Source: Nitrospirota bacterium (GTDB lineage Bacteria > UBA2233). Taken from it: 64,000 nucleotides of DNA. A program made the translations under genes and the position numbers. The notes beneath the pieces are model-generated. The model searched no databases. It was not told where the DNA came from and saw only the letters and a program-made list of their open reading frames with translations. The stretch's first letter is position 1, and each line of letters begins with the position of its first letter. Location of the stretch: NCBI GenBank assembly GCA_011620345.1, contig WOZJ01000015.1, positions 1-64,000 of the forward strand, read 5' to 3'. Shown in pieces: positions 48,287 to 53,212 of this stretch.

Positions 48287-48850
48287 CTACTTTGCCCGTT
48301 CGATGTACATGCCGGTTCTCGTGTCCACCCGAAGCACTTCGCCCTGCTCGATGAACAAAGGAACCTGGACGACGAGCCCCCCTTCGAGCGTTGCGGGCTT
48401 TGTGCCGCCCTGGGCCGTGTCTCCCCGAACGCCCGGCTCGGCCTCTACCACCTTAAGCTCGACGAAGGTGGGAATCTCGATCGTCAACGGGTCTGTCCCC
48501 AAGAATAACGCGCGGACTTCCATGCCTTCTTTCAGGTAGAAGCGCTTATTCCCCAGCACGGAAAAAGGGATACTGAACTGCTCGTAGGTCTCCATATCCA
48601 TGAACATTGCGCTTTCGCCCTCTAAATACAAGCATTGTAGTGGCTTCTCGGAGAAATCCCCCCCCTCGAAACGCTCACCAGAACGGAATGTTTTGTCCAG
48701 AACATTATCGCTTTTTAAGCCTCTTAATTTTGTTCGGACGAACGCGCCTCCCTTGCCGGGTTTGACGTGCTGGAAGTCGATTATTTCGAAGGGCTGCCCC
48801 TCGATCAGGAGCTTCAGCCCCTTCCGGAAGTCGCTGGTCGCTAGGCTCAT
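48287..48850 (-). CDS. efp: Translation elongation factor P
   Basis: EF-P rescues ribosomes stalled at proline runs. The tip loop HVKPGKGGAFVRTKL carries the lysine (K33) that is modified in many bacteria. The rest follows the three-domain pattern, with GLVVQVPLFIEQGEVLRVDTRTG at the C-terminus. Length 187. The ATG at 48850 has AGAGGA 7 bases upstream and overlaps the aroQ stop by 4 bases. No lysine-modifying epmA/epmB gene is nearby. It may help translate the proline-rich repeat peptide at 51413, though this is speculative. Confidence 0.96.
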   Translation of the reverse strand: MSLATSDFRKGLKLLIEGQPFEIIDFQHVKPGKGGAFVRTKLRGLKSDNVLDKTFRSGERFEGGDFSEKPLQCLYLEGESAMFMDMETYEQFSIPFSVLGNKRFYLKEGMEVRALFLGTDPLTIEIPTFVELKVVEAEPGVRGDTAQGGTKPATLEGGLVVQVPLFIEQGEVLRVDTRTGMYIERAK

Positions 48851-49326
48851 GACATGTCCTCTTTCTTTTTCTTGTTTTGAATCTTGCACGCTATGTACTC
48901 GAGCGCAAGGATGTATCCCCAAACGCCAAGTCCCATGATCCGTCCCTTGACGACATCGGAGATCGTAGAGACATGCCGGAAAGACTCCCTGGCGTAGGGG
49001 TTGCTTAAATGGACCTCGATAGCTGGGGTTTGGGCGGCCAACAGGGCATCCCGGATCGCGATGGAGGTATGCGTGTAGGCGCCGGGGTTAATGACCAACC
49101 ATGCCACCCCTTCCGCGGGAAGGGCTTGGATACGCGCTATGATCTCTCCTTCATGGTTGGACTGAGCGTGCGAAAGCTCCAGTCCCAAGCTTTTGGCCCT
49201 TTCTTGCAGCTCGGCCTTCATTTGTGCGTAAGTTTGGGTGCCATACACCCGAACCTCCCGGTTGCCGAGGAGGTTCAAGTTCGGGCCGTCGATTACGGCA
49301 ATCCTTCGGTCCGCAGCGTTTTCCAT
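48847..49326 (-). CDS. aroQ: 3-dehydroquinate dehydratase, type II
   Basis: This enzyme performs the third step of the shikimate pathway. Type II motifs are intact: DGPNLNLLGNREVRVYG with the catalytic Tyr in the flexible loop, SNHEGEIIARI, NPGAYTHTSIAIRDAL and EVHLSNPYARE with the catalytic His and Arg. Length is 159, normal for the small dodecameric type. The start overlaps aroB by 34 bases; no later in-frame ATG exists before the first conserved motif. AGGAG lies about 10 bases upstream. The C-terminus ends in a lysine-rich tail. Confidence 0.94.
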   Translation of the reverse strand: MENAADRRIAVIDGPNLNLLGNREVRVYGTQTYAQMKAELQERAKSLGLELSHAQSNHEGEIIARIQALPAEGVAWLVINPGAYTHTSIAIRDALLAAQTPAIEVHLSNPYARESFRHVSTISDVVKGRIMGLGVWGYILALEYIACKIQNKKKKEDMS

Positions 49327-50396
49327 AGGTCAACAAGCTCCTCGATGGCGATAGGTTCAATCCGGACGGACCCGATACGGTCGAGCAGGACGAACCGGAC
49401 CTTCGCGCCTTGCTTTTTCTTGTCGAGCGAAAGCAGCCTTTTCATCCGGTCGGGGTGAATGCTTGGCGGTTTCGTAGGCAAGCCAAGCGCCTTGAGCGAT
49501 TCTTTGACCCTAGCGTACGCATCTTTCGTTGTACTGCCTATCCGGTAGGCCACCGCGGCTTCTACGAGCATTCCAAGACCAACGGCCTCCCCATGCAGAA
49601 AGGTCTTGTAGTGCGCATGTGCCTCGAAGGCATGGCCGAAGGTGTGGCCGAAGTTTAGTACGGCACGCAGGTTCGCCTCTCTTTCGTCTTGCTCCACGAT
49701 GGCCTTTTTATGCAGGATGCTGGCCTGGATTACCTTTGCCATCGCATCAGGGTCCATCCTGAGCAAGGCTTGTGCGTTCGAGACGATGAACTCAAAGAAC
49801 GGCTCGTCTTGAATCATACCGTATTTTAGGACCTCTGCAAGCCCTGCGATGTACTCTCTTTTAGGGAGAGTGGAAAGATACTCCGTATCGATCAGTACGC
49901 CGCTCGGCTGCCAGAAGGCCCCTAGGGCGTTTTTCGCCTGCTTGAGGTCTATCGCCACCTTTCCCCCGATGCTTGCATCTACCCCGGCCAAGAGGGTCGT
50001 AGGAATCATGACAAACGGAACCCCCCTTTGGTAGGTGGCCGCGACGAACCCGGCCAAGTCTCCCACAACTCCGCCCCCGAACGCGACGAGCGCCCAGCCG
50101 CGGTCTGCACCGAAATAGAGCAGCTTTTGGGCCACGCTTGCGTACACATCGAGCGTCTTGGCCCTTTCTCCTGCGGGGACGACGATGAGCTTTGGTTTCT
50201 TGGATAAATCTTTGATTAATTGGGCGTATAAGGGCTCTAACCATAGCTTGGCCAGGTGGCGGTCGGTCACGATGGCCAAGGGCCTTTGCTCGAGGCATTC
50301 CTCGAGGAACGCGGCAATTTTGTCCCTCACCCCTTGCCCTAAGACAATAGGATAGGTGCCGCCCTTTGTGGTTACGTCAATGCGCGTGATTTCCAT
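49293..50396 (-). CDS. aroB: 3-dehydroquinate synthase
   Basis: AroB converts DAHP to 3-dehydroquinate using NAD and a divalent metal. Typical segments are AFGGGVVGDLAGFVAATYQRG, VMIPTTLLAGVDASIGGKVA, NALGAFWQPSGVLID and the metal-binding NFGHTFGHAFE. Length 367 is normal. It lies between aroK, which it overlaps by 20 bases, and aroQ. The three genes supply steps two, three and five of chorismate synthesis in one transcript. Confidence 0.95.
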   Translation of the reverse strand: MEITRIDVTTKGGTYPIVLGQGVRDKIAAFLEECLEQRPLAIVTDRHLAKLWLEPLYAQLIKDLSKKPKLIVVPAGERAKTLDVYASVAQKLLYFGADRGWALVAFGGGVVGDLAGFVAATYQRGVPFVMIPTTLLAGVDASIGGKVAIDLKQAKNALGAFWQPSGVLIDTEYLSTLPKREYIAGLAEVLKYGMIQDEPFFEFIVSNAQALLRMDPDAMAKVIQASILHKKAIVEQDEREANLRAVLNFGHTFGHAFEAHAHYKTFLHGEAVGLGMLVEAAVAYRIGSTTKDAYARVKESLKALGLPTKPPSIHPDRMKRLLSLDKKKQGAKVRFVLLDRIGSVRIEPIAIEELVDLWKTLRTEGLP

Positions 50397-50898
50397 TTTT
50401 TCTCGTCAGGCCGATGATGTTAAGGATTTCCAAGGCCACCTCACGGGGAACTCGCCCGTCCGTGGTTACCCGGTACTTCGCGAGTGCTTCGTAAAGGGGC
50501 GTTCTTTGTAGGTACAGCTCGTTTGCACGCGCATGGCTTCTCCAAAGTGGACGTTTCGTGTCGTTTAAGAGCCGAGCCTTGATCGTGTCGAACGAAGCCT
50601 CCAGGTATACGGTGTAGGGCAAGGGTTCGATCAGCGCGCGGGCTTCTTCGCTCGTAACCACCCCACCGCCGGAGGCGATCACAACGCCGTCTTCTTGAAG
50701 CGCGGCTTGAAGCGCCCTGACCTCTTTTTTCCGAAAGTAAGGCTCGCCGTGTTCTTGAAAGATCGCTTGGATATTAAGCCCCTCTTTGGCCTCGATTCGC
50801 GCATCCAGGTCGACAAACCTGAACCCCGACAGCCTGGCAAGGATTCGGCCGACGGAGCTCTTTCCGGCCCCCATGAACCCGAGGAGAAGGATGCGCAT
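50377..50898 (-). CDS. aroK: Shikimate kinase
   Basis: Shikimate kinase phosphorylates shikimate with ATP. Walker A is GFMGAGKSS (7-15), the shikimate-binding DLDARIE follows, FRKKEV supplies a conserved Arg, and IASGGGVV is the second substrate loop. Lid residues are in KRPLWR. Length 172. I chose the ATG directly before the P-loop fold; an ATG 39 bases upstream would add 13 residues. It heads the long leftward run aroK-aroB-aroQ-efp-accB-accC-TPR. A 17-base palindrome lies about 125 bases upstream. Confidence 0.92.
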   Translation of the reverse strand: MRILLLGFMGAGKSSVGRILARLSGFRFVDLDARIEAKEGLNIQAIFQEHGEPYFRKKEVRALQAALQEDGVVIASGGGVVTSEEARALIEPLPYTVYLEASFDTIKARLLNDTKRPLWRSHARANELYLQRTPLYEALAKYRVTTDGRVPREVALEILNIIGLTRKNGNHAH

Positions 50899-51023
50899 AC
50901 CTTGCCCTGGTTTTTGACCTATCAGTTTACCATACACCGAAAGAAGAAACCGGCGCTATCCCTGAAGGGCAAGAACCTAGGCTTTCTTGGGTAGGCTTAA
51001 GGAAACAAAAAAAAGTGATTCTT

Positions 51024-51040: not shown

Positions 51041-51147
51041 GACCTTAGTCAGTGCAGCTTCTTCGTCCCTGGCTTACTCTTTGGCGGGTGTATCGAAAAA
51101 ACAGCAGGTTCTTCGTACCGAACTAAGGAAGGGGCTTGAGCGTCAGA

Positions 51148-51175
51148 AGGGGACGGCGGACCTGCGCCGTCCCCT
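51148..51175 (-). terminator. Strong hairpin after the exported-peptide gene
   Basis: AGGGGACGGCG (51148-51158) and CGCCGTCCCCT (51165-51175) form a perfect 11-base-pair stem around a 6-base loop. It lies 15 bases past the stop of the 40-residue peptide gene on the minus strand, where an intrinsic terminator would be expected. The T tract after it is poor (TTCTGACG), so it may act as an RNA-stabilising hairpin or a factor-assisted terminator. Confidence 0.55.
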
Positions 51176-51189
51176 CGGATCGAAAAGGG

Positions 51190-51312
51190 CTAGAAAGGCT
51201 GAACCATAGGCTGCGACGGGCTCTTGCCGCCGGCCGGGCAAGCTTGGCCGGTACCCATGGTAGAAACAATCCCAAGGAAACCCAGGGCTAAGGCTACAAG
51301 CGTTTTCTTCAT
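51190..51312 (-). CDS. Small exported peptide, 40 residues
   Basis: This short gene encodes a basic start (MKK), a hydrophobic core (TLVALALGFLGIVSTMG) and a 16-residue polar tail (CPAGGKSPSQPMVQPF). It looks like a signal peptide plus a tiny mature peptide; cleavage after GQA is plausible, leaving a tail that starts with Cys. The ATG at 51312 has AAGGAG 6 bases upstream. A separate promoter lies at 51361-51390 and a strong hairpin follows the stop. I do not recognise a family. It is the third member of a leftward ferritin-like/PPGQGI-peptide/exported-peptide group. Confidence 0.65.
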   Translation of the reverse strand: MKKTLVALALGFLGIVSTMGTGQACPAGGKSPSQPMVQPF

Positions 51313-51397
51313 GGCTCTCTCCTTGAAGGGGGCGTTTAAGGACAATTTATACCTACTTAAGTTCTATCCCTCTACACCCCAACGTGTCAAGAGAGCC
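51313..51397 (-). promoter_or_regulatory. Inverted repeat that could hide the peptide ribosome-binding site
   Basis: Read on the minus strand, GGCTCTC-TTGA (51397-51387) is complementary to TCAA...GAGAGCC (51326-51313), giving 7 plus 4 base pairs with a 3-base bulge. The right arm contains the AAGGAG ribosome-binding site of the 40-residue peptide gene. A transcript arriving from the upstream genes would include both arms and could mask that site; one starting from the promoter at 51361-51390 would lack the left arm. Confidence 0.4.
51361..51390 (-). promoter_or_regulatory. Promoter for the small exported-peptide gene
   Basis: On the minus strand TTGACA (51385-51390) is a perfect -35 and TAGAAC (51361-51366) a moderate -10, spaced by 18 bases. 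Transcription would start near 51354, 42 bases upstream of the peptide ATG. The -35 overlaps the left arm of the inverted repeat. Confidence 0.5.
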
Positions 51398-51412
51398 AGT
51401 ATGCCGCTTTTT

Positions 51413-51556
51413 TTACAAGCCGAAAGGCCCCTGTGGCCCGCCCTTTTTTTGTCCTGGCGGGATACCTTGCCCCGGCGGAATGCCCTGTCCGGGCGGAATG
51501 CCTTGGCCTGGCGGGCCGAAAGCGACGCTAGGACCTTTCTTCGTAAGCTTAAGCAT
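51413..51556 (-). CDS. Small peptide with PPGQGI repeats, 47 residues
   Basis: The product starts MLKLTKKGPSVAFG, continues with three exact PPGQGI repeats (15-32) and a partial fourth (PPGQ, 33-36), and ends KKGGPQGPFGL. The ATG at 51556 is preceded by AAAAGGAGG 6 bases upstream, among the best ribosome-binding sites in the window. Repeat codons differ synonymously (for example Gly as GGC, GGA, GGG, GGT), which suggests selection on the peptide. No signal peptide or cysteine is present. The glycine period is six, so it is not collagen-like. I do not recognise a family. It follows the ferritin-like gene by 39 bases. Confidence 0.65.
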   Translation of the reverse strand: MLKLTKKGPSVAFGPPGQGIPPGQGIPPGQGIPPGQKKGGPQGPFGL

Positions 51557-51595
51557 GGCGTGCCTCCTTTTGTTTTTGGGTGAAACCCATTAAGG

Positions 51596-52030
51596 CTAAC
51601 TTAACTTCTCAAGCGCCTTCAAAAAGGACCCATGGTGCTCTTTTTCGTCCGATAAGATGTCTTCAAAAATCTCCTGGATCTTGGAAAGCCCCTCTTTCCC
51701 GGCTGTCTCTGCGATCCGGGGGTAGAGCTCCAAGGCGCCTTCCTCGGCTTTGACATCCAGCTCGATCATTTCTTTGATTGTCTTGCCCACGATGACGGGC
51801 GGGTCCGGCTGTGTGGGTAACTCGCCTCCAAGCTTGCGGAACGCCTCGGCGATCTCCTCGGCATGCTCCATCTCTGCCATGGCAATCTTTCGGAACAGCT
51901 TGCGGGCCTCTGGCCCCTCTTCCTTTGGGGTGGCAATGTGGTGCCACATGTACTGGATAGAGCCCTGAAGCTCGCTTGCCAGGGCTTGATAAACCATGTC
52001 CATTAGTTCTTTCGAGGCTTGTTGCGTCAT
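51596..52030 (-). CDS. Ferritin-like di-iron protein
   Basis: A 144-residue four-helix protein of the ferritin/bacterioferritin/rubrerythrin group. Candidate iron ligands are E20 (ASELQGSIQYMW), E53 and H56 (AEMEHAEE), E86-region acids (IELDVKAEEGALEL) and the ExxH in SDEKEHHGSF, so both halves of a di-iron site appear intact. No rubredoxin domain is present. The ATG at 52030 follows AAGGGGA. Likely roles are iron storage or peroxide/oxygen protection. The PPGQGI-peptide gene follows on the same strand. Confidence 0.85.
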   Translation of the reverse strand: MTQQASKELMDMVYQALASELQGSIQYMWHHIATPKEEGPEARKLFRKIAMAEMEHAEEIAEAFRKLGGELPTQPDPPVIVGKTIKEMIELDVKAEEGALELYPRIAETAGKEGLSKIQEIFEDILSDEKEHHGSFLKALEKLS

Positions 52031-52144: not shown

Positions 52145-53212
52145 TCATAGAAAATCGGACGCGATGGCGTCTTGCTCTTTGAGGAGCCTTTGTTTTTCCG
52201 AATCAGGAAGGAAGGCGGCAAGGATAGAGTTTTTAGCGAGCGTGGACACGTCCCATGCGCTCATGTCTAAAGCCTCGGCGCTTTGGAGGTAGTTTTCCAG
52301 CAAATAGCCGCCAAAATAGGCCGGGTCGTCCGAGTTGACCGTGACCAAGATCCCAAAATCCAAAAGCCGCTTTAGGTTGTGCTCCGTAAGCGACGGGAAC
52401 ACCCTTAACCTTACGTTGGAAAGCGGACAGACGCTCAAAGGGATCCGGCGGGCCTTGATCTCTTCCATTAGCTCCGGGTCTTCTTCCGAGCGCACGCCGT
52501 GGTCAACCCTAAGCACCTTGAGCTCGCTTAGCGCCTCTCTGACGTAGCCCGCCGGCCCTTCCTCGCCCGCGTGCGCGACAGGCAGAAACCCTTCTTCCCT
52601 GGCCTTGGCAAACACCCGGCGGAACTTGGACGGCGGGTTGCCCGCCTCGCTCGAATCGAGGCCAACGCCAAGAATTGCCTTTTTGTAGGGAAGGGCCTGT
52701 TTTAGCGCTTCAAAGGCCTCCTGCTCGCTCAAATGGCGCAAAAAGCAAAGGATGAGCGCAACCGAGAGGCCAAGCTTGTTCTCGGCATCTTTGGCCGCCT
52801 CGAGAAGCCCTTCGATTACGGACGCGAAGGGAACCCCGCGGGAGGTATGCGCCTGGGGGTCGAAGAAGACCTCGGCCCGGACAATGTTCTCTTCGCTGGC
52901 CTTTTGAAAGTAGGCCATAGCCAGCTCGTAGAAGTCTTGCTTGGTCTTCAGGACCGCAAGCCCTTGGTAGTAAAGCTTAAGGAAGTCCTCCAGGTTGGAG
53001 AAGTTGTACGCCTCCTTCAGGGCCTCTGGCGTTTTGTAGCCAAGCGCTACGGCGTTCTTTTTGGCCAACCTAAAGACCATCTCTGGCTCGAGCGTTCCTT
53101 CGATGTGCAGGTGGATCTCGGCCTTGGGCATGGCCTTAAGGAAGTTTTGCATGACATCGCGGTCCATCCGCTTGGAAAGGGGGCTTTCTTTTGGTGTCGC
53201 CTTGGGTTCCAT
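52145..53212 (-). CDS. Adenine deaminase-like protein (adenosine deaminase family)
   Basis: A 355-residue amidohydrolase-fold deaminase. The zinc-binding start AEIHLHIEGTLEP, the FFDPQAHTSRG segment, HAGEEG with the catalytic His-Glu pair, CPLSNVRLRVFPS and the zinc-binding VNSDDPAYFGGY are present. FDPQAHT and the SNVRL motif fit the adenine deaminase branch (EC 3.5.4.2) better than adenosine deaminase; I cannot exclude the latter. AAAGGA precedes the ATG. It follows the GH31 gene by 32 bases and probably feeds purine salvage. Confidence 0.85.
   Translation of the reverse strand: MEPKATPKESPLSKRMDRDVMQNFLKAMPKAEIHLHIEGTLEPEMVFRLAKKNAVALGYKTPEALKEAYNFSNLEDFLKLYYQGLAVLKTKQDFYELAMAYFQKASEENIVRAEVFFDPQAHTSRGVPFASVIEGLLEAAKDAENKLGLSVALILCFLRHLSEQEAFEALKQALPYKKAILGVGLDSSEAGNPPSKFRRVFAKAREEGFLPVAHAGEEGPAGYVREALSELKVLRVDHGVRSEEDPELMEEIKARRIPLSVCPLSNVRLRVFPSLTEHNLKRLLDFGILVTVNSDDPAYFGGYLLENYLQSAEALDMSAWDVSTLAKNSILAAFLPDSEKQRLLKEQDAIASDFL

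Follow-up and report, generated by a model that had tools for sequence, protein, structure and literature searches.

A divergent mini-bacterioferritin gene beside two small peptide genes in a genome of the UBA2233 lineage

Does a ferritin-like gene followed by two very short genes in a Nitrospirota bacterium form a new system, or is a ferritin of a known kind here merely accompanied by small neighbors? The question was raised by a preliminary description of the window, that is, of the whole stretch of 64,000 nucleotides analyzed (GC content, 55.8%), which belongs to a genome of 1.80 Mb (72 contigs, 97% complete). In a 2024 review (PMC11382960), the lineage UBA2233 is listed as the candidate phylum Ca. 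Cutipiota; the two genomes counted there measure 1.8 to 1.89 Mb, come from oil-contaminated soil and a tailings pond, and have GC contents of 55.75 to 56.11%, with which that of the window agrees. The open reading frames (ORFs), a PF00962 match (E 3e-88) and the fold of the hairpin confirmed the arrangement described initially, in which three leftward genes lie between an adenosine deaminase (ADA) gene (52145 to 53212), upstream of the ferritin gene, and a hairpin; the shikimate kinase gene forms the other flank of the three-ORF block. Downstream of the peptide genes, EF-P, AroQ (class II dehydroquinase), AroB, and AroK are encoded in one direction at 48287 to 50937. Searches for plasmid and viral contigs returned nothing, and an Rfam search gave no match worth keeping (best, RF01687 with 16 bits versus a gathering score of 37).

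The first gene (51596 to 52030, minus strand) is an ORF for a protein of 144 amino acids that matches PF00210 (E 1e-20). In a profile search of solved structures, the top match was the mini-bacterioferritin (mBfr) of Ca. Methanoperedens (9qq4, E 2e-37), and the next were 9viw and the D. desulfuricans Bfr. The mBfrs, described in 2026 in Ca. Methanoperedens, are 12-mers with inter-subunit heme that lack helix E and bear the heme-ligand methionine, with His29, Gly34, Met52, and the absence of extensions as the proposed signature (PMC13168243). Like the mBfr of Ca. Methanoperedens carboxydivorans (Mper-mBfr; PDB 9QQ4/9QQ5, PMC13168243), for which iron uptake has been shown in vitro, the window ferritin is a short four-helix bundle without the E-helix; the two proteins are 32% identical by structural alignment. 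All six di-iron ligands are kept (E20, E53, H56, E96, E129, and H132), as are the heme-ligand methionine (M54, mBfr Met52) and the signature histidine (H31, mBfr His29). There is no N- or C-terminal extension, and the chain ends 12 residues past H132.

Unlike Mper-mBfr, the window ferritin has K36 in place of Gly34 in the A-B loop, a position occupied by Gly in 16 of 16 close relatives. Both partners of the Arg61-Glu127 dimer-dimer salt bridge (PMC13168243) are lost, being replaced by Ala63, where 13 of the 16 relatives have Arg, and Lys130. Furthermore, at the positions of Arg13 and Tyr28, which contact coproheme in Mper-mBfr, the window ferritin has Leu17 and Ile32. Since the signature Gly34 is absent, we file the gene as a divergent relative rather than as a typical mBfr. 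By sequence, the protein belongs to the described mBfr family as a divergent member and is no new kind of ferritin. The ligands, profile matches and signature residues thus bear out its initial designation as di-iron ferritin-like and sharpen it to divergent mini-bacterioferritin.

Two other assignments were rejected. A 24-mer bacterioferritin is contradicted by the lack of a C-terminal helix E and a TIGR00754 score of 30.8 bits versus a cut-off of 125.6. Classical rubrerythrins carry a C-terminal rubredoxin domain; the 144-residue protein has none, and its NF045767 score was 48.7 bits versus a cut-off of 200.

An AlphaFold2 (AF2) model of the ferritin built from three aligned sequences had a pLDDT of 85, versus 53 for a single-sequence model. 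It comprises four helices only, with neither a B-C loop helix nor a helix E. Structures 9qq5 and 9qq4 were among its top matches (Z 18.7, 135 aligned residues, 2.0 A), but other ferritin types ranked equally: Dps, Bfr, and further structures came within 1 of this score, and the structural comparison does not discriminate the ferritin type. Substitution of the A-B loop glycine and loss of the dimer-dimer salt bridge suggest that the window ferritin assembles differently from the standard 12-mer.

A canonical mBfr paralog is encoded elsewhere in the same genome (G000:C43:2870-3307, L076). It is 47% identical to the window ferritin and has the same ligands but, unlike it, keeps the signature Gly and Arg and has no peptide genes at its locus. 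In a phylogenetic tree, the ferritins of the window and of Nitrospirae bacterium UBA2233 (hereafter UBA2233), the only other genome of the genus among those compared, fell near this paralog, inside a clade of 19 rows made up of short Bfr-like proteins. Their branch measured 1.41, versus 0.24 for the paralog. The window ferritin is thus most likely a genus-specific second copy that diverged from the canonical mBfr of its own genome, the duplication being likely but short of proof because local support was 85/86 and the branch is long. Searches of UBA2233 returned the peptide-flanked copy only; as this assembly is 93% complete, the canonical copy may be missing from it through incompleteness. 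As to its surroundings, the paralog lies between two ORFs; judged by eye, one, of 699 amino acids, is thioredoxin-domain-like and the other acyl-CoA-dehydrogenase-like. On a Bathyarchaeota contig (L074:5989-7634), the ORF that comes after an mBfr gene is, again by eye, likewise acyl-CoA-dehydrogenase-like, which may point to a recurring neighborhood of canonical mBfr genes.

The second gene (51413 to 51556, minus strand) encodes a 47-residue peptide with approximately 3.5 copies of PPGQGI, built from 18-nt tandem units. The peptide is rich in Gly, Pro, and Gln, has a net charge of +5 and contains no acidic residue. A collagen reading was rejected on inspection, as Gly occurs at spacings of 2 and 4 and not at every third residue. 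In the comparison with UBA2233, 13 of 14 substitutions fell at codon position 3 (binomial P of 6e-6). Only 2 amino acid changes were observed versus 9.3 expected, as few as in none of 20,000 neutral simulations, and a dN/dS of 0.043 indicates strong purifying selection. By this substitution pattern, the frame is real coding sequence. Its start lies 39 bp past the ferritin stop, behind AAAAGGAGG, with AGGAGG before the ATG, and a minus-strand scan of the gap between both genes found nothing terminator-like. Because of the short gap, the peptide's own ribosome-binding site and the lack of a terminator between them, we infer that this gene is probably cotranscribed with the ferritin gene. The peptide itself is probably genus specific, cytosolic, and disordered-looking.

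The third gene (51190 to 51312, minus strand) encodes 40 residues with a signal-peptide-like N terminus. On inspection, the predicted mature part is approximately CPAGGKSPSQPMVQPF, some 16 residues from the Cys, and the GQAC motif is not a canonical lipobox. Relative to UBA2233, synonymous and replacement changes numbered 5 each (dN/dS of 0.32), a pattern that alone is not significant versus neutral expectation (P of 0.19). A Shine-Dalgarno (SD)-like site combined with a signal-like ORF of such length arose once when the region was shuffled 20,000 times. Conservation and these shuffles indicate that the gene is probably real.

A gap of 100 bp (51313 to 51412, minus strand), 17% substituted and free of indels relative to UBA2233, separates the two peptide genes. 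By eye it holds TTGACA-N18-TAGAAC, an element that in UBA2233 reads TTGACG-N18-TAGAGT; a sigma-70 scan called no promoter, this candidate included. We regard the element as a weak promoter candidate, and the exported-peptide gene may be transcribed separately from the first two genes. Downstream, a GC-rich hairpin with a 12-bp stem (51145 to 51180, minus strand) folds with -24.8 kcal/mol (z -4.9); its stem is kept in UBA2233 and its loop changed. It has no U tract, and a pattern scan called no terminator there. As an exact pattern, it occurs at a single site in the genome, and a genome-wide repeat was therefore rejected.

We investigated how far the three genes are conserved together. All three are collinear in UBA2233, with lengths and frames kept and identities of 94% for the ferritin (dN/dS of 0.13), 96% for the PPGQGI peptide, and 90% for the exported peptide. 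Among 98 sampled genomes, strong matches to either peptide came from only two, both of this genus. Outside it, the PPGQGI peptide had only low-complexity matches in the 98 genomes, the best of which (G079, E 7e-5) crosses a stop codon. Neither peptide had an above-cut-off match in Pfam or NCBIfam. In a survey of approximately 50 other Bfr-like loci, covering as a rule 1.5 kb on each side, no ATG-started, SD-preceded small ORF rich in Gly, Pro, and Gln was found; ordinary neighbors surrounded the paralog in the same genome and the mBfr genes of two nearer relatives (G046 and the Bathyarchaeota contig). Co-conservation thus held within the genus and was not seen beyond it. The possible three-gene "new system" is drawn from two genomes and from gene order only: the genes are co-conserved within the genus, but the ferritin is close to a described family. 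Since the arrangement occurs in two genomes only, a linkage of peptide and ferritin is inseparable from the short-range synteny of close relatives. The gene order EF-P, AroQ, AroB, AroK, ADA, and GH31 is also common to the window and UBA2233; with the whole block collinear in both species, the adjacency of the three genes carries little information. Within this block, the ADA proteins differ in their C termini (355 versus 372 amino acids), the stop being at different positions in the two species.

The explanation we favor, and consider reasonably probable, is a diverged mBfr that still oxidizes and stores iron, together with a probably cotranscribed, genus-specific peptide. It builds on the observed genes, their conservation, the family resemblance, and the ligands. 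Because the di-iron ligands are kept, iron oxidation and storage are transferred from Mper-mBfr to the window ferritin, which, though duplicated and fast diverged, would still perform both in vivo. The PPGQGI peptide would be made from the ferritin transcript, in the cytosol, and this basic, acid-free peptide may bind the acidic ferritin shell (charge of -11) or the iron core; given the altered assembly residues and the opposite charges, an interaction between peptide and shell is conceivable. As for the exported peptide, it may be a small envelope peptide in its own right, with the locus in common but not the mechanism.

A less probable but still credible alternative is that the three genes, for a divergent mBfr and two orphan peptides (one cytosolic, one exported), are neighbors without a shared function, adjacent only through the kinship of the two species. 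It would account for the collinearity of the whole block from EF-P to GH31, for the absence of the peptides from other mBfr loci, that of the canonical paralog included, and for an exported-peptide gene set apart by its gap and possible own promoter. It is less easily reconciled with the close spacing of the ferritin and PPGQGI genes, with a ribosome-binding site and no terminator between them, with the strong constraint on the PPGQGI peptide, or with the confinement of both novelties, diverged ferritin and peptide, to one locus.

Relative to the favored reading of a diverged, iron-storing mBfr with its peptide, a more elaborate proposal appears unlikely: a genus-specific ferritin system in which the duplicated mBfr has changed assembly surfaces, a coevolved PPGQGI peptide would control shell assembly or the iron core, and the exported peptide would be a companion. 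Encapsulation, also considered in the preliminary description, found little support. The window ferritin resembles encapsulated ferritin-like proteins (EncFtn, EncB) weakly in profile searches (EncB_fam, 42.7 bits versus a cut-off of 90) but remains below the curated cut-offs and, unlike them, forms a full-length four-helix bundle in one chain. In the genome, 97% complete, no encapsulin gene (PF04454) was found, whereas control genomes gave matches, and encapsulation through an encapsulin is therefore unlikely. We consider least probable a dedicated iron-handling or oxidative-defense system, an idea raised in the preliminary description; here the basic peptide would organize the core or the assembly of the ferritin, with the exported peptide acting in the envelope. 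Co-conservation within the genus, the opposite charges, the altered assembly contacts, and the failure to find a catalase-related domain (PF06628) in the genome are in its favor, but the exported peptide would be in another compartment than the ferritin, the arrangement was not found beyond two genomes, and no encapsulin gene was found.

Taken together, these data extend the mBfr family, which received its name only in 2026, by a divergent paralogous member; the candidate phylum it comes from had two genomes in the 2024 listing. Its peptide genes are a feature that the description of Mper-mBfr (PMC13168243) does not mention. The natural changes at the proposed determinants of the 12-mer offer a case in which to test how ferritin assembly is set. 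If it were shown to bind the ferritin, the well-conserved micropeptide encoded beside it would be of interest as well.
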